Shown here in pieces: positions 11,801 through 59,700 of a DNA stretch of 64,000 nucleotides; the stretch's first letter is position 1, and each line of letters begins with the position of its first letter. Source of the DNA: Eurosta solidaginis (taxonomy: Eukaryota > Arthropoda > Insecta > Diptera > Tephritidae); NCBI RefSeq assembly GCF_040869045.1, contig NC_090322.1, forward strand, positions 79,631,675-79,695,674, in the 5' to 3' direction. The notes below the pieces were generated by a model. It was not told where the DNA came from. It saw only the letters and a list, made by a program, of their open reading frames with translations, and searched no databases. The position numbers were made by a program, and so were the translations under genes.

Positions 11801-11935
11801 AAGCTATGTATTCAAAAGTGTTTGTACCAGTGGCTGGTGCACACCGAACTGAACCAATGTATGCTATATTGAGTCCTGCACAAATACCAAGCTATGTTTA
11901 TGTAAATAATATTACTGCTAATGTCAATTTGCACA
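11801..11935 (+). pseudogene. Host-like low-complexity protein fragment, upstream piece
   Basis: An open plus frame reads HPSYMEAMYSKVFVPVAG, AILSPAQIPSYVYVNNITANVNLH and is cut at 11936 by the SAM/C2H2 element. The reading continues after the element at 18266 (AHTVPTFIQGGTP). A second copy of the downstream part at 20137 reads AHPVPTFMQGGTPHYFHGD. The Pro/Tyr-rich composition and lack of transposon motifs suggest an exon of a host gene; I do not recognise which. A TGA sits where Trp is likely, just before AHPVP, in both copies. Confidence 0.5.
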
Positions 11936-11939
11936 CCCA

Positions 11940-12380
11940 GAAAAAAAATCGTGTTGAATCAACACTTTTTTAACACTTTTTGTGTTTAAAATTTTTCAAA
12001 CCGAAGCATAGTGTAATCCTCGTGTTAAAAGTGTTAATTCAACATGTTCTTAAAGTGCTTATTCAACACTATGGAAAGTGTTGATTGAACACTAAAATTT
12101 GGTTAATTCAACATGATATTTAACACGGTGGTTACTGTTAAATTAACAGGAATTATTGTAAAAAGTGTTAATTCAACATTAACTTAAAGTGTGTATTTAA
12201 CACTATGAAAAGTGTTGATTTTACACCAAAATATTGTTGATTTTACATGATATTTAACATGATACCTATGGTTAAACTAACAGGAATTAATGTTGAATTA
12301 ACACTGCATGATCGTGTTAAAACAACAGTAAATCCTGTTAAGTTTAACACTATCCCCTGTTGTTTTACCCTTAAGTAAAA
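11940..12380. repeat. Left subterminal repeat array of the SAM/C2H2 element
   Basis: Two diverged units of about 131 bp (from about 12028 and 12160), built from AAGTGTTAATTCAACAT, TTCAACACTATGGAAAGTGT and ACATGATATTTAACA words. Many short inverted GTGTTAA/TTAACAC pairs could fold. The position mirrors the right-end array. Confidence 0.75.
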
Positions 12381-12731
12381 GTCTTGTTTTAAAGTTGACT
12401 CTAAAGTGGTTGTATTTATTAAACACATGCAATATATATACATTTTTAACTTAAATCTTGTGATAAATGAAATTAATTCAGCGTTGTTATATTAGTATAC
12501 TTATGTAATCAGACTTGAGAAAAATCTTATGCGAATAATACCCGCTATATATAATATATAGTAATAATAATAATTAAAATAATACATTTTGGCCAACCAT
12601 TTTAATAATACTTCACAAACTTTTAAATGCTCTTTAAGGCGTCTTGTTTTACTAACATATTTCACCGATTTTTTAAATAATATGTATATACTTAAATAAT
12701 TTTTCAATTTTTTTTTTTTTAATTTTTATTA

Positions 12732-13049
12732 GTCCAGGCATATTAGACGAAAAACCAATGAATGGTGGAACTCTTTCGGACCATAGCTTTCTTTGGTTTA
12801 TGGAATTCTCCCACTAATGAACATGAAACGTTGAAAAAATAAACCAAAAATTTCCAGAGCATACTTTGCTGCAGCCATTTAAAGTGCATTTTTTTTTGCG
12901 TTTTTTTATTATTTCGAGAATGGCAGCAGCTGTCAAAAAATTTTTGGTTTATTTTTTCAACGTTTCATGTTCATAAGTAGGAGAATTCCATAAACCAAAG
13001 AAAGCTATGGTCAGGAAGAATTCCACCTGAGATGCTAATATGCCTGGAC
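12732..13049. mobile_element. 318 bp foldback MITE with TA duplication
   Basis: The two arms of about 120-130 bp are inverted copies: both start GTCCAGGCATATTAG and run through CCATAGCTTTCTTTGGTTTA and CATGAAACGTTGAAAAAATA. TA flanks both ends, as for Tc1/mariner elements. The central 60 bp are unique and there is no ORF. It sits 3' of the C2H2 gene within the larger element, so it inserted later. Confidence 0.88.
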
Positions 13050-13328
13050 TATATATGGAATACGAGAATGGCGAACATACTTATATGTCTTTTTTATGCC
13101 ACTATTATGTAAAAAATTTATGTTTAATAATAAAATAAAATCTCGTATGATATGAAAATTCAGCATTTTTTTTTTAAATATGTAAATACATATATATTTG
13201 TATATTCAGTCTTCTACAAAATTTGTAGATAATATATGTGTAACTTTCTTTATAAAAAATATTAATATAAAACTTGTTCCTATACATACATATGGGACAA
13301 ATCATGTTTTTAAAATGTTGTATTCATT

Positions 13329-14288
13329 TCAAAAACTTTTCAAACGTATAACCTTTTTCTTATTTCGTAAAATATGTGCATATAGGGGTGGAGAATATAT
13401 GTCCCCACTATTTATAATAAAAAAATTGAATGATTTTTCCCCCAATACATATGCTTGAATATGTGGACTAAAACTTATATTATATTTTGAACATATGAAG
13501 AAAAGTTTTTGTAAAGTTTCACCATGTATGACATTTGTATAACTTTGGTTGTTATCTTTTAAAGTTTGCATATTTTCCAATGTATCTTTTAAATTGCTTT
13601 TCGATTGAAAATATTTAGCAATTTGAAATTTTATGGGCATAATTACTCCTACGACTTTGTTGGAATGCAATCCGGGACTATTATTGATAACAATTTCGGA
13701 AATCTCTTCACTAATAGTATATGAAGAGGGAAATTTAAAAATTTCTTCATTTTCTAAAGATTTCAAAAAACGATACTCGCTAGAAATATGTTCAAAAGGT
13801 GAAAAAAGTTTTCGGAATTGATTTTCGATAAAGATTCTTTGATTGAGGTCTGCTATAAGTGGTGAGATTGACATTAAAACATGTTCCTGAATTGGTTTTA
13901 AAATTTTTTCATTTACATTGTCTAAAACATTAAGCACATCCTTTCTATTAAAATTATTTTTGTCATGTAGAGATAAAATGAATCGATTAATATCCAACTG
14001 AGCTATATTTTCACTGCTTGCAGTAGGGCCAATTTGTAGTACGTTTTCGTGTGTTTCCCTTTCACTGTAAAATACTTGTTGTTCTTGCGAACTCGTAACT
14101 ACAGCCGAACGTGCGTGAACTCTCTTTAAATGGTTTTGAAAGGTATAAACGTTTGAAAAGCACTGCCCACATTTAGGTGCATTACAAATAAATTTTTTTA
14201 TCTTATTAAACGTATGAAAAGTTTTTAAATGAGCGATCAAACTTTTTGCCTCTAACGCAACAAAATTGCAAAGAAAACATTTAAACAT
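13329..14288 (-). CDS. C2H2 zinc-finger protein of the SAM/C2H2 element
   Basis: 319 codons. Residues 1-25 form one finger (FKCFLCNF ... HLKTFH); residues 32-60 form a second (FICNAPKCGQCF ... HLKRVH). The rest is helical and Lys/Asn-rich with no fold I can name; it includes SPLIADLNQRIF, FRKLFSPFEHISSEYRFL and SYTNVIHGETLQKL. The ATG at 14288 lies 10 bp after the stop of the upstream SAM gene and directly behind an AG acceptor-like TTTAACAG, so it may be read from a spliced or bicistronic transcript. The frame is intact, in contrast to the SAM gene. It could be an element-encoded DNA-binding protein. From memory, similar paired SAM and C2H2 families occur in many copies in fish and invertebrate genomes; I cannot verify that here. 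Confidence 0.65.
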   Translation of the reverse strand: MFKCFLCNFVALEAKSLIAHLKTFHTFNKIKKFICNAPKCGQCFSNVYTFQNHLKRVHARSAVVTSSQEQQVFYSERETHENVLQIGPTASSENIAQLDINRFILSLHDKNNFNRKDVLNVLDNVNEKILKPIQEHVLMSISPLIADLNQRIFIENQFRKLFSPFEHISSEYRFLKSLENEEIFKFPSSYTISEEISEIVINNSPGLHSNKVVGVIMPIKFQIAKYFQSKSNLKDTLENMQTLKDNNQSYTNVIHGETLQKLFFICSKYNISFSPHIQAYVLGEKSFNFFIINSGDIYSPPLYAHILRNKKKVIRLKSF

Positions 14289-14297
14289 GCTGTTAAA

Positions 14298-16766
14298 TTA
14301 TTTTACGGTCTGTAGGTAGCTTGTATGTAAGACAATATTTGGAGTTGCTATGCATTCAATATCAAAAAAATAATGTTGTATAAAAGTGTACAGGTTTTTC
14401 GCTTCCGCAGGATACTCAAAATTCAGGACATGAAATAACTTAAATATAGTATCAAGTGCTTTTAAAAATGTAGGCACCTTATATAGAATACCATCGAAAA
14501 GAATATAAAAACTAGCCAAACTAGCTATATCTGGTCCAATAACTAAAATTATAGTTTGCAATGGAAGTTCTTTCCCCATAGCCTTCAACTTAAGTTCTTC
14601 ATATAGTCTTTGGTAATCATTAATGCATTCACAGTGCAGTACTGTAGCGTTTTGAGCTTCGCCTATAGACGGCTTCCATTTCAGACGTTTGCCGGCATTT
14701 GCTTGCTGGACAGAAATCATTTATGGCTTTAGCACAGCATGTAAAAGCAACGTAATTATACAATCTTTTGAATCTGCGATAAAAAGTAAATTACATTAAT
14801 ACATTATTATTTATGCTAAAGTATAGGTATTAAATTACCGTCATTCAGGGATGTCTCTATTTTAGCCAATAAATTTTTGGATGCTGAATCCTTTACTTTT
14901 TCATTCATGTATGGAAGTATAGTCGTTGTAAAATTAGGCCATTCGGTGAACAAACTTTGGGATTTGCCCGGGTATTTCAATTCGAAATCAATTTCAATCT
15001 ACGTATATATGTATGAAGAAAAAAAATTTTATGAATATACTTTTTACTTACATATGATCATATTTAAAATTCAAGGTCAATTATTCTTACCAAGGAGTAT
15101 CCAAGTGAATGTTTTAAAAGCGGCCATTCAATAAGCACATTTTTGCTTTTATTTTTGACATCTTCTATTCTTAAGGCAATCGTATCTCTCCAGTTTTGTT
15201 CTACAACACTCCATGGTTCCACGTTATGTGAAAGCCATATTTTTATGCCCTAAGCATCTTCATCTACCAATATAATAAAAGTAAATTTAATAAAACACAA
15301 ATGGTACATTTAAACAAAATGTATACCTTCGGTTTGAGTTTCTGTCTGTTCGGTTATTTTATAACTACTTATATCGATTTCCGCATCCTTGACTTTTGTA
15401 CCCCTTTTCATTTTACGGCGGACATTTGTTGCTTTGTCATATAATTTTCCAGTAGGATTTTTTCCACTGCGTTTGTTGCAGTAATATCTCTGTATATATG
15501 TAAGTAAAATAATGAAACAAATGTTTTATAAGGGAGGCCCGAAATCAGGTGCTATTTTGGAATAATCATAGTATTAAATCTAAAGCTTTGTATCGTTGGT
15601 GAATTCATTTTACCATTACGCGCCCAATACATTAAATCAAACATGGCACAACATTTTAGCTTTGATACTACTTACAACAAAACTGACACCTGGATATCGG
15701 GATAATACATAGCCAATATTAAACACGTTTGTTTTTTATAAAAATCTTACCAAATCTTCTATAGGAAATAATAGTATAATTTGTTCTGAAAAATTTATGA
15801 TATCCCTCATTTTCATAGGGATCGACCGCTCAGAAAAATGTTGGACTATGATATTTACCAAGGCTTCGCGATGTTCGTCTAGCAACAAACAATGTTCCTT
15901 ATATTGTTGCAAAATGCTTTGGCCCCATGGAGTTGCTTTTAGTATTTCATCTAGACTCTTTACAGGTGTACTTGCTGCGACAGATTGAGATTTGTGGCTA
16001 CAGCTAAGCGAACTATTTGAAGATTCCAAAAAACAAACAATATTTTCCTGCAATAAAAAATGAAATGCAAAAAAATATATATGTGTACATTTAACTAAAA
16101 CTAACGCTTACTTTATTTTCCTTCAAATTGGCTAGCCTTTGCTTAAATTTAATTCTAGTCCCAAGCATTGAAACAGGGAAAAGTTCATTGATATCGTCTT
16201 CTTTAATTAAAAACAGGCTCTCAATGTCCATTCCACAGTCTGAAAATATAAAATATGTATATTTATGAATATGCACTAGGGTGGGACTCCTTTTGCAAAT
16301 TTGTCAAACAAAGCAAGAATTTGCTGACGTTTAGCAATTTCTAGCAGGTTGTCGCATTACCATATCTTGAAATATTTCCACAGATTACGTTTTCACTACC
16401 TAACATAAATTTCCGAAAAGTTTTTGATTTATTCCTTAATACAAATTTGCCTCCATACAAATATGGAGCACCCTAATGTGCACACTTATTAACAAACATA
16501 CAATTGAAGATTGAATGAATAGGTTCCTGTTCATAAAAACTTAATTAAATTATCTTACCTATCATTCTTTTGTACACATCTTCGCCAAAATCCATTTTTC
16601 CGGAAATGATGTCCTTTAGATTCGCATTCTCGCACTTCGGAGCTGCTGTGGTGCCGCTCTGAGGCAGAGAAGTCTCAATTTCACCAGAAGGCAGCAGCTC
16701 ACCACTGGGCCCAATAATAAATATTTGGCTGGATTCTTGGTCAACATCACTCACTACACTGCTCAT
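14298..16766 (-). pseudogene. Seven-exon SAM-domain gene of the TIR element
   Basis: Exons on the minus strand: 16766-16559, 16239-16112, 16047-15751, 15489-15327, 15263-15091, 14998-14839 and 14773-14298. Every intron has GT...AG ends, and the phases (1,0,0,1,0,1) agree throughout, giving 534 codons plus stop. Exons 1-2 encode a SAM-like domain (DIESLFLIKEDDINELFP, LGTRIKFKQRLANLK). Exon 3 has ILKATPWGQSILQQYKE and IVQHFSERSIPMKM. Exon 4 has a basic NKRSGKNPTGKLYDKA stretch. Exon 5 has WLSHNVEPWSVVEQNW, exon 6 ELKYPGKSQSLFTEWP, and exon 7 an I-LVIGPDIASLASF segment ending in EYPAEAKN. Two in-frame stops break this copy: TAG at 15250-15252 and TAA at 14721-14723. No transposase motif is seen. 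Function is unknown; SAM domains usually mediate protein or RNA binding. Confidence 0.75.
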
Positions 16767-16898
16767 TTTACTAACGAAATGCTTTAATTAAATATTTATG
16801 AATAAACTTGAGCAATTATCAAAACAAAATACAACTCACAATATTATATTGCAAGCGACGCTGACATTTCGAGAAAAATTATGAATTTATAACGGGAT

Positions 16899-18130
16899 AT
16901 TTGCTGTTGTTCTTTTTTCAACACTTTTCAGTGTTACTTCAGCACTAAAATAATGTTATCAGACTACTTCATGTTACATGAATTCGAAGAATTTGTTGCT
17001 GTTGTTCTTTTTCAACACTTTTCAGTGTTACTTCAGCACTAAAATATTGTTATCAGACTACTTAATGTTACATGAAGTCGAAGAAGTTGTTGCTGTTGTT
17101 CTTTTTTTAACACTTTTCAGTGTTACTTCAACAGTAAAATATTGTTATTAGACTGCTCCATGTTACATGAAGTCTAAGTCAACATTTTTAAATGTTTCTT
17201 TAACAGTAAAATAATGTTATCAGACTACTTCATGTTACATGAATTCGAAGAATTTGTTGCTGTTGTTCTTTTTTCAACACTTTTCAGTGTTACTTCAGCA
17301 CTAAAATATTGTTATCAGACTACTTAATGTTACATGAAGTCGAAGAAGTTGTTGCTGTTGTTCTTTTTTTAACACTTTTCAGTGTTACTTCAACAGTAAA
17401 ATATTATTATTAGACTGCTCCATGTTACATGAAGTCTAGGTCAACATTTTTAAATGTTACTTTAACAGTAAAATAATGTTATCAGACTACTTCATGTTAC
17501 ATGAATTCGAAGAATTTGTTGCTGTTGTTCTTTTTTCAACACTTTTCAGTGTTACTTCAGCACTAAAATATTGTTATCAGACTACTTAATGTTCCATGAA
17601 GTCGAAGAAGTTGTTGCTGTTGTTCTTTTTTTAACACTTTTCAGTGTTACTTCAACAGTAAAATATTGTTATTAGACTGCTCCATGTTACATGAAGTCTA
17701 AGTCAACATTTTTAAATGTTACTTTAACAGTAAAATAATGTTATCAGACTACTTCATGTTACATGAATTCGAAGAATTTGTTGCTGTTGTTCTTTTTTCA
17801 ACACTTTTCAGTGTTACTTCAGCACTAAAATATTGTTATCAGACTACTTAATGTTACATGAAGTCGAAGAAGTTGTTGCTGTTGTTCTTTTTTTAACACT
17901 TTTCAGTGTTACTTCAACAGTAAAATATTGTTATTAGACTGCTCCATGTTACATGAAGTCTAACTCAACATTTTTAAATGTTACTTTAACAGTAAAATAA
18001 TGTTATCAGACTACTTCATGTTACATGAATTCGAAGAATTTGTTGCTGTTGTTCTTTTTTCAACACTTTTCAGTGTTACTTCAACAGTAAAATATTGTTA
18101 TCAGTATACTTCATCTTACATGAAGTCGAA
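16899..18130. repeat. 262 bp higher-order repeat array, right subterminal
   Basis: GTTGCTGTTGTTCTTTTT recurs at 16994, 17255, 17518, 17780 and 18042, a period of 261-263 bp. Between these, a related unit starts at 17089, 17351, 17613 and 17875. Each 262 bp unit thus consists of a 95 bp and a 167 bp subunit, both built from AACACTTTTCAGTGTTACTT, TTATCAGACTACTT and ATGTTACATGAA words. Copies differ by only a few bases, so the array is recently homogenised. It lies just inside the right TIR of the SAM/C2H2 element. Confidence 0.95.
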
Positions 18131-18265
18131 GAAGTAAAAATCTTGTTTGCCAGATAGTGTTAATTTGAAAAATTTTGAAAAATTGTTGTTGCTTTGCATG
18201 TTAAAATCGATCGTGTGAAATTAACATGAATCGTGTTGCTTAAAAATTACGATTTTTTCTCTGGG

Positions 18266-18405
18266 TGCACAGTTGAGCACATACAGTACCTACGTTTATA
18301 CAAGGTGGAACACCACCTACATGGCGATGTAGGCACCGATCAGGTTGTTGTAAGAGATTAATTAAAATATGTTATTCATAAACACTGATTCTTATATTTT
18401 CATTA
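18266..18405 (+). pseudogene. Host-like protein fragment, continuation after the SAM/C2H2 element
   Basis: Starts with the TGCACA duplication, then GTTGAGCACATACAGTACCT encoding AHTVPTFIQGGTP. About 130 bp, to ATAAACACTGATTCTTATAT, is repeated with roughly 10% differences at 20137-20280, on the other side of the R1-type LINE. Confidence 0.55.
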
Positions 18406-18639: not shown

Positions 18640-19939
18640 GCCATGAGAAGCATGAGTGCACTTTGGGTGTCCCAAGACAAGTTCCGTACCTGCTCCGAAT
18701 AATTTGTAGCTATCTAAGCGACAAAGTACTCCCTTTTGATACAGATGAGGGACTAAGAAAGCACAACACCACGGGCGGTGTCCCTCAGGGATCTGTTCTA
18801 GGTCCAACTCTTTGGAATGCGATGTATGGCGGGGTGCTACAAATCGACCTTCCCGGAGGCACGGAAATTGTCGGCTATGCAGATGATATTGTCGTAGTAG
18901 CAGTGGCCAAGGAACTTGATCTGCTCCAAGCATTATGTAATGACGCCGTGGGAAGAATAAAGGAATGGTTGACGAACACGGGGCTGGAGATGGCTAGCAA
19001 TAAGACAGAAGTGGTTCTGATGAGCTCAAAGCGGACTGTGGATGAGTTGGTCCTAACCATAGGAGATTATCAAATAAATTCAAAGCCCTCCTTGAAATAT
19101 CTAGGAGTAATCATTGACTCAAAACTAACTTTTAGGGAGTACTTCAGGGCGGTGTGGGACAAAGTTTCTAGAGTTAGTGGAACCCTAACGCGAATAATGC
19201 CCAACATCGGCGGCCCAAGCGAAGCTACCCGTCAGCTATTATCCAACGTAACCAGCTCTATAATATTATATGCAGCACCAATATGGCACAGATCTAAAAT
19301 GGTCCACCAAAAAGATATATTAGCAGCCTACCGCATTACTGCTATACGAATATCATGTACTGTTCCGACGACGCGATCCATGCTTTATCCAGGAAAATCC
19401 CAGTAGATCTACTCTCAAGTGAAATGGCCGATCCGTATGCCATTGGATTCAGCCGACCATCTGAAGATGCTAAGAAAAGCGCAAGGTCACGAACAATATT
19501 TAGGTGGCAAGAACGGTGGGAAGATTCGAGAAAAGAGCGCTGGACCTTCATACTAATCCGGAATATAGCGGAATGGTACGAGCGAAAACACGGCAAACTA
19601 AATTACCATCTCACTCAAATATTGAGCGGGCACGGTGGCTTCAAGGAATATCTACATAAGCGTGTGATAGAGGAGGATCCTTTCTGTCCAAGCTGTCCGT
19701 CCGAATTGGAAAGCGCAGAACATGTAATATTTCACTGCCCTCGTTTTCACGGCGAAAGACTGTCTGTAAACAGAGTTTTTGGAGAGGAACCTTCCATTAG
19801 GAATTTAGTTCCACGAATTTGCGGACAAATAGATTGTTGGATTGCTGTGAGCAAGATGGCCTTTATAGTAATGACGAAATTGATGATGAATGGCAAAAGG
19901 GAGCGCAGAGAAATGCGCATACGAAGTAGTGGCGACTAA
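18640..19939 (+). pseudogene. R1-clade LINE reverse transcriptase, 5'-truncated
   Basis: The first frame (18663-19406) has GVPQGSVLGPTLWN, IVGYADDIVVVAV (YADD box at about 18880), NKTEVVLMSS and LKYLGVIIDSKLTF. A frameshift near 19360 moves to the second frame (19355-19939), which reads VDLLSSEMADPY, then FLHK-type FKEYLHKRVIEEDPFCPSC and ESAEHVIFHCPRF, the CCHC knuckle at the C-terminus. The YADD context and C-terminal CPxC...HxxxxC layout fit the R1 clade. It is followed by an AT-rich tail (AATTAATAATAATC). The 5' part, including the endonuclease, is missing. One frameshift separates two otherwise long frames, so this insertion is moderately young. Confidence 0.85.
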
Positions 19940-20136
19940 ATCGCCTTTTAATCTATAATTAATAATTAATTAATAATAATCTAAAATTAATAATAAATTT
20001 AATTTAATCTATTCTTACTGATATGAGTTTCTTTTTCATTCTAGGTAATTTGATTTTGACGTTGTGAGGATAGAAATATCCCAAATATTCCAGCTGTGGC
20101 TGTAAGAACATACATTTGCTCAAATTAGAAGAAAAC

Positions 20137-20690
20137 TGCACGGTTGAGCACATCCAGTACCTACGTTTATGCAAGGAGGAACACCACACTACTTTCACGG
20201 GGATGTAGCCACCGATCACGTTGTTGCAAGAGCTTGTTTTAAATATGTTATTCATAAACACTGATTCTAATATTATGTTTTGGTTTTTACTATAGAGTCA
20301 ACCTGTTATATAAGCGATGTCAGCTATGCCTGTAACTTAAGCGCCCTCAGATGTAATAGTTACCGCGGACGCGGTCACAGGAGTAGATCACTACGCGGGG
20401 ATTACACTAATCAAGGACTTTCAATATCGGAAGGTTTTCCAGCACCATAACAACACCAACAATATGTGCAATCACCCGAATAAATTGTACAACAAACGTT
20501 AACACCACATCATCCGCCAGCAACAACAACAACAATCGCAACAAGTTGAAACTTCTAAACAATTAATGACTAGTGAACCACCAACATATCCGCAATATGC
20601 GCAAACATCAACACCAACATATGTCGCCTAGTTTGCAACACGGTGAAGATGGCCAAGGCCATTCTGATTCTAATACTGATAAAGGCGAAC
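20137..20690 (+). pseudogene. Host-like protein fragment, second copy and downstream part
   Basis: Repeats the 130 bp block (AHPVPTFMQGGTPHYFHGD...), then continues with a Gln/His/Thr-rich stretch containing YRGRGHRSRSLRGDY and CAACAA-rich DNA. Stops and frame changes are frequent. The composition fits the disordered tail of an RNA-binding-type protein, but I do not recognise the gene. Confidence 0.45.
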
Positions 20691-59039: not shown

Positions 59040-59700
59040 TTGTTTGGGACTCCTCAAGGATTATTTCTCCCTACTCCAGCCGTTTACAACTTATTCAGCT
59101 CCCTACATTACGGAGTCGTCGGGATGGTAGGTGTGTTATTTGTAGTAAAACTTATTAGAGGGATGGTAAATAGGTCTTTTCTGCTCGGTGAAATTTTATT
59201 TAATGTTCCCTTTCGACCATCTAGACATTTCAACCGCTTCATATAAGCACATGGACAACGAATTTTGAAATGCACGAACCTCTTCGTTGTCTGTGTGCTG
59301 ACTTCAATAAGCACTGCAAAAACATTGATACGTGTGACTCACTCTACGTAGTAAAAAAATATCTGCTGACTACCTTAAATATGCAATGATTTGGGTGAGT
59401 GGCTTGGAATCACGTCCTTTCCAACCTCCCACACATCGCAGCCCTACTTGTTGTGTGTGAAATATACATCAGCAGCTGGAAATCACGTCCATTCCGACAG
59501 CACTAATTATCAATTCCTGTTGCTCGGCATCACAGTCCATCCCGACAACTGATTTAACAGTGTATATACATATTTCATAATATAATTTTGTTCAATTTGT
59601 ATGCTTCTGTAATTTATCTGTAATCCGTACTATATTTAGTCTAATTAATTGTTAAATTTGTAGACTAATAAATAAATAAATAAATAAAAATTCAAAATTT
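59040..59700 (+). mobile_element. LINE-E 3' end, plus copy
   Basis: Short coding tail (AVYNLFSSLHYG, FVVKLIRGMVNRSFLLGEI, FNVPFRPSRHFNRFI, then HEPLRCLCADFNKHC in another frame). A 3' UTR with three degenerate GGAATCACGTCC(T/A)TTCC units (59406-59540) follows, then an AAATAAATAAATAAATAAA tail (59666-59690). The UTR design matches the minus copy at 10298-11150. Confidence 0.6.

Follow-up and report, generated by a model that had tools for sequence, protein, structure and literature searches.

The stretch of DNA analyzed here, a window of 64,000 nucleotides from the tephritid fly Eurosta solidaginis (contig NC_090322.1), contains a two-gene element (Table 1) which is very probably a non-autonomous, internally deleted DNA transposon of the cut-and-paste type, whose transposase gene is accompanied by a SAM-domain/DUF4769 gene as partner. 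Both genes lie on the minus strand. The original prediction, which was made from the letters of the window alone, had already proposed a DNA transposon with two compact genes on one strand and with subterminal repeat arrays at both ends, and all of this could be confirmed by the ends, duplications and dispersed copies described below. The seven-exon SAM gene was proposed with consistent splicing, and its splice sites are indeed kept, but in the window copy it is interrupted by two in-frame stops (TAG at 15252-15250 and TAA at 14723-14721). In copy L009 it is uninterrupted. The C2H2 gene was placed 10 bp behind it; the close spacing holds, with a gap of 9 bp.

Table 1. Features of the element in the window (positions of the 64,000-nucleotide stretch).
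Feature	Position	Strand	Remarks
Target-site duplication CA, left	11932..11933		
Whole transposon copy, internally deleted	11934..18267		6,334 bp; from comparison of copies
Left terminal inverted repeat CACCCAGAAAAAAAATCGT	11934..11952	+	
Left subterminal region, GTGTT/AACAC words	11936..12400		Tandem Repeats Finder (TRF) unit 134 bp, 2 copies, at 12023-12293
Transposase gene, C-terminal part	13332..13513	-	Residues ~735-795 of the 795-aa L014 read-through
Internal-deletion junction	13514..13516	-	1,425 bp relative to L009, AAG microhomology; removes residues ~262-734
Transposase gene, N-terminal part	13517..14288	-	Residues 1 to ~261; two C2H2 fingers and following region
Intergenic gap	14289..14297	-	9 bp; SAM stop 14300-14298, transposase start codon 14288-14286
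SAM-domain/DUF4769 gene, 7 exons	14301..16766	-	Stop codon 14300-14298
SAM gene, exons 1-4	16766-16559, 16239-16112, 16047-15751, 15489-15327	-	
SAM gene, exons 5-7	15263-15091, 14998-14839, 14773-14301	-	
Right subterminal tandem array	16918..18135		262-bp unit, 4.7 copies, 97% matches
Right terminal inverted repeat, minus-strand reading CACCCAGAGAAAAAATCGT	18249..18267	-	
Target-site duplication CA, right	18268..18269		

Searches of the species' own genome (assembly of 1.91 Gb) yielded 16 copies of the family to which the window element belongs (family A; L010 and L011 are counted together as a single split copy) and nine copies of a second family (family B), whose DNA is 67-69% identical to that of family A over the matched stretch. 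Both ends could be recognized in eight family A copies, all of which exhibited exact 2-bp direct repeats outside CACCCAGA...TCTGGGTG (CA in the window and L017, CG in L009, TG in L014 and L022, TA in L020, L021 and L024). The ends of family B (CACGCAGAAAAA.../...TTTTTCTGTGTG) were placed by the loss of homology between copies. Eight of nine left ends start with CA, the exception being L031 with TACGCAG, and all eight right ends found carry TG, although here the search patterns already contained the termini. A 2-bp duplication was present in the eight family B copies (of nine) with both ends recognized. Among the 25 copies of both families, window included, 16 were scorable for the duplication and nine were not; its length was exactly 2 bp in 15 of the scorable copies, while the direct repeat of L033 comprises 6 bp. 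This length is happenstance; L033 too carries the 2-bp duplication, which gives 16 of 16.

These comparisons correct the predicted ends. CA or TG was found outside the CCCAGA pattern at 20 of 20 family A ends, in a search whose pattern did not contain these bases, and the terminal inverted repeats therefore start two bases further out. They are near-perfect, as had been stated, but measure 19 bp with one mismatch in the window copy instead of 17 bp. The sequence TGCACA, formerly taken for a 6-bp target-site duplication, is composed of the conserved CA...TG termini, the 2-bp duplication and a chance identity. Polinton, Dada and IS3EU, the superfamilies that were considered as candidates for a 6-bp duplication, were rejected, as the copies carry 2-bp duplications.

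In a nucleotide search of the genome, alignments break at window positions 13514-13516. The two sides of this junction are 1,370-1,427 bp apart in seven copies (L009, L012-L017). In L009, a fuller element of 6.9 kb, 1,425 bp lie between them, and as AAG is common to both sides there, the window copy probably arose from a deletion with 3-bp microhomology. With the missing segment restored, the C2H2 frame becomes a protein of about 795 amino acids (aa; read-through of L014 with one frameshift and one stop), of which the window copy retains residues 1-261 and 735-795. According to a motif match of this read-through to the invariant residues, the lost segment contains D279, D373 and E622. Among 92 aligned relatives of the transposase, whose tree was used solely for distances to the relative P0002, the D, D, E triad is invariant in the sequences of all 92, as are C415-x2-C418 and H620-x3-H624, and the zinc ligands of the C2H2 fingers are kept in most. 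The fold predicted for P0002 is RAG1-like; in such fold comparisons the absence of a family excludes nothing. Judged by its sequence, the C2H2 gene of the window is a DDE transposase gene stripped of its catalytic core by deletion. The earlier statement that no DDE signature is visible thus applies to the window copy, but not to fuller copies, in which the transposase occupies the region that is missing here, an outcome that the original prediction had named as refuting it.

No uninterrupted transposase frame was found among nine translated family A copies, and the family B copy L028 has a stop-free transposase frame of 821 aa. Using P0002 as query, the same genome gave 1,231 first-look candidates, 65 of them scored, with 67 matches. 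These matches include eight stop-free frames of 770-821 aa with 36-44% identity, which suggests that several transposase families were active in this genome recently.

The SAM and C2H2 genes go together, as had been supposed. Parts of both are retained by all 16 family A copies, including the deletion derivatives L021-L024, in which SAM residues 1-149 or 1-151 remain together with only the C-terminal transposase portion that starts at residue 726, and both genes occur in the nine fetched family B copies (coverage of 672-685 of 685 residues for P0002 and of 393-594 of 594 for P0126). As the DNA query spanned both genes, this pairing is partly built in for families A and B. Three further families were represented by one locus each, picked by the transposase match alone (44%, 41% and 39% identity to P0002), and at all three (L035, L034 and L036) a SAM gene immediately precedes the transposase gene in the same orientation. 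In their last parts, the SAM proteins of the five families are 35-62% identical to each other, with D and E being closest, and hence belong to separate families. The stop-to-start gaps are 9 bp in the window, 9 bp in L028, 10 bp in L034, 7 bp in L035 and 25 bp in L036, where an earlier in-frame ATG would overlap the SAM gene. The pair was consequently present in five of five Eurosta families examined with the same order, strand and a spacing of 7-25 bp, a count for which a minority of the 67 transposase matches was retrieved. The derivatives L021, L022, L023 and L024 share an internal deletion that leaves SAM exons and the transposase C-terminus in place, and measure 2.9-3.6 kb in the three copies with both ends readable. 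They are possibly a self-amplifying non-autonomous subfamily or a source of a SAM-only regulator.

Words of the type TGTT-N(4-8)-AACA are concentrated in both subterminal regions. The left region contains eight (mean of 0.65 and maximum of 4 in 200 shuffles) and the right region 19 (mean 1.67, maximum 7), the latter not being independent of each other because the array is itself a tandem repeat. The interior of the element, with two words against a shuffled mean of 1.1, shows no enrichment.

The clade CMCT, as defined in PMC12730594, comprises EnSpm/CACTA, Mirage, Chapaev, Transib, Plavaka, ESTA and Lanisha, and is characterized by a D, D, E triad with C(2)C and H(3-4)H motifs between the second D and the E, 5′-CA...TG-3′ termini and a duplication of 2 to 5 bp. 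All of these traits are found in the Eurosta element, and its placement is based on them; a RAG1-like predicted fold, as modeled for P0002, is also common to this clade. Several features specific for single lineages are missing. The termini read CACCC in family A and CACGC or CACAC in family B in place of CACTA, and the duplication comprises 2 bp and not the 3 bp of EnSpm/CACTA. Transposase_21 (PF02992) gave no match for the Eurosta protein and matched three of 53 relatives at E<=0.1 (P0051 with 16.1 bits, under the cut-off of 28.6). The Plavaka domain PF18759 likewise did not match the Eurosta protein; weak matches occurred in four of 53 relatives. P0096 and P0051, with 24.9 and 24.1 bits, stay below the cut-off of 26.3, yet these two of the 120 listed relatives had been assigned to PF18759 in a precomputed annotation based on a different version of the model. 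The Plavaka termini TGT..ACA or CATCA..TGATG (PMC12730594) were not seen in the element. With Transib and RAGL it has the predicted RAG1-like core fold in common, but not their 5-bp duplication. In RAG-like elements (ProtoRAG, RAGL) the genes are convergent and the partner is RAG2-like (PMC7204232), in contrast to the tandem genes and the SAM-type partner in Eurosta. With the general traits present, and with the ends, the 3-bp duplication and the tnp2 score of plant CACTA, TRC motif I, the Plavaka termini and the 5-bp duplication of Transib and RAGL absent, the window element is therefore almost certainly a transposon of the CMCT clade with a deleted transposase, its sub-lineage being unsettled. 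Two features set it apart from the clade as described, namely the N-terminal C2H2 fingers of the transposase, which are not mentioned in the main text of PMC12730594, and the SAM/DUF4769 partner, which has no counterpart in the passages of that study concerned, where SAM was not searched for.

It is possible, albeit with somewhat poorer prospects than an even chance, that the element is an ordinary animal EnSpm/CACTA element of the TRC type with nothing distinctive beyond a second open reading frame (ORF) resembling ORF2 of plant CACTA. Insect and schistosome TRC elements possess direct repeats of 2 bp and ends starting with CCC, of the CCCAGT- or CCCTAG-type in Aedes and Tribolium, as well as a D-x-[LM]-H box (PMC1636069), all of which resembles the Eurosta element, and some transposase relatives show weak tnp2 and DUF4218 matches. 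Yet TRC motif I (D-G-x3-F/Y ... W-P; PMC1636069) is missing from the family consensus YxDDFEINNPLGS, which lacks the W-P pair, and the CACTA termini and 3-bp duplication mentioned above are absent. Furthermore, the ORF of SmTRC1 has 560 aa, and a SAM partner is not mentioned in the passages of PMC1636069 used here.

For a CMCT-clade element with a SAM partner, the following course of transposition can be envisaged. The transposase would cut at the CA...TG termini and connect the 3′ ends with target DNA at a stagger of 2 bp, while the C2H2 fingers, the SAM partner or both would bind the repeated subterminal words. As the genes are only 7-25 bp apart, both proteins may be made from one transcript. 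The SAM protein could help to pair both ends via self-association, a job similar to that of TnpA or RAG2, and it may also regulate expression. The window copy would be mobile only with proteins from other copies. The role proposed for the SAM partner is suggested by En/Spm, for which the binding of a helper to subterminal arrays is typical. In plant En/Spm the subterminal repeats are bound by TnpA, a protein unlike a SAM-type helper, and deletion derivatives occur. With the transposase TnpD and TnpA, these elements have two ORFs, as the Eurosta element has, but they differ from it in their CACTA ends (CACCC or CAC[GA]C in Eurosta) and their 3-bp duplication. In specific families, the second ORF aids excision and transposition (PMC4158355). 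The pairing of ends through self-association of the SAM protein, which is argued from such analogies, is a tentative proposal.

The SAM/DUF4769 gene itself is likely an integral partner of the transposase and not cargo. That it is a passenger dispensable for transposition, for example an anti-silencing or regulatory gene, appears rather unlikely, as homologous SAM genes stand directly upstream of the transposase in all five families, in unchanged order and strand, whereas cargo genes in a study of fungal transposons switched between transposon lineages (PMC12730594). Passenger genes, such as TET/JBP in the fungal elements, are nevertheless documented in related transposons in the same study. 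It also fits a passenger that no function is assigned to DUF4769, that the role of the SAM protein here is predicted, and that the named relatives which a search found for it are all from flies while transposase relatives occur in several insect orders. A non-DDE transposon driven by an unfamiliar SAM/C2H2 module, as originally envisaged, would fit the window copy alone with its absent catalytic core, and was right in assuming that a part had been lost here, but is extremely improbable given the conserved DDE core of fuller copies and the RAG1-like fold in the model of a relative. Equally negligible is the chance that two host genes merely lie between unrelated repeats: NCBI lists several genes of the pair as uncharacterized proteins (P0001, P0002, P0122 and P0126), but the pair is not single-copy, occurring in many dispersed copies with common ends and decayed frames, 16 of which have readable ends and exact 2-bp duplications.

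What appears to be new here is the SAM/DUF4769 partner beside a C2H2-fingered CMCT transposase, the transposon clade itself being known. Among the matches listed, which covered titles and the beginnings of abstracts, but not Repbase, no literature was found that connects these transposons with SAM or DUF4769 proteins; Repbase probably holds related consensus entries. A resemblance of the SAM protein to human or fish SAMD3-like proteins was considered, and by title and beginning of abstract no relevant paper on SAMD3 and transposons was found. Four proteins were without a match in NCBIfam. Viral contigs scanned with the transposase relative P0011 gave four pattern matches and no relative, and none of the viral structures searched matched the SAM-protein model at E<=0.001. 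Relatives of the transposase numbered 503 at E<=1e-3. Of the best 120 of these 503, which stem from several insect orders, 118 lack a Pfam label, and the names, where given, are few and read "uncharacterized", "hypothetical", "unnamed" or "C2H2-type domain-containing" protein. With relatives so labeled, annotations may take many transposases with a RAG1 fold, along with the SAM partners, for genes of the host. A study of the beetle Novius pumilus, for instance, lists DUF4769 among the gene families that have expanded (+3) and are under positive selection (PMC8805230), and these counts may include transposon genes.

A helper recurring beside a RAG1-fold transposase can be set against the way in which RAG1 became dependent on RAG2. 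Whether such elements form a distinct and widespread animal lineage of RAG1-fold transposons that co-evolved with an obligatory SAM partner, polymerizing on the arrays to synapse the ends, is doubtful at present; if true, synapsis by a SAM partner would be a second, independent two-component solution besides RAG1/RAG2.

Several smaller observations concern the element and its surroundings. The right flank (window 18266-18400) is a repeat, and a copy with 86% identity over 138 bp at 20137-20274 begins at the insertion point. For the left flank, no similar match was found at 20137 or elsewhere in the 64-kb window. The uninterrupted relative of the target that had been claimed at 20137 was thus rejected as a demonstrated empty site, as the right flank alone is matched there. 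Within the element, a fold-back segment (window 12764-13027) with arms of about 77% complementarity occurs at the same place in several family A copies, and a 34-base piece beside it (12701-12734) recurs at 59663-59697. In L019 (4237-4605), a 168-bp stretch of the last SAM exon is present as two extra repeats beside the exon. Downstream of the element, the plus strand at about 18700-19950 contains a reverse-transcriptase-like frame with a YADD motif read by eye, which is probably a fragment of a non-LTR (long terminal repeat) retrotransposon.

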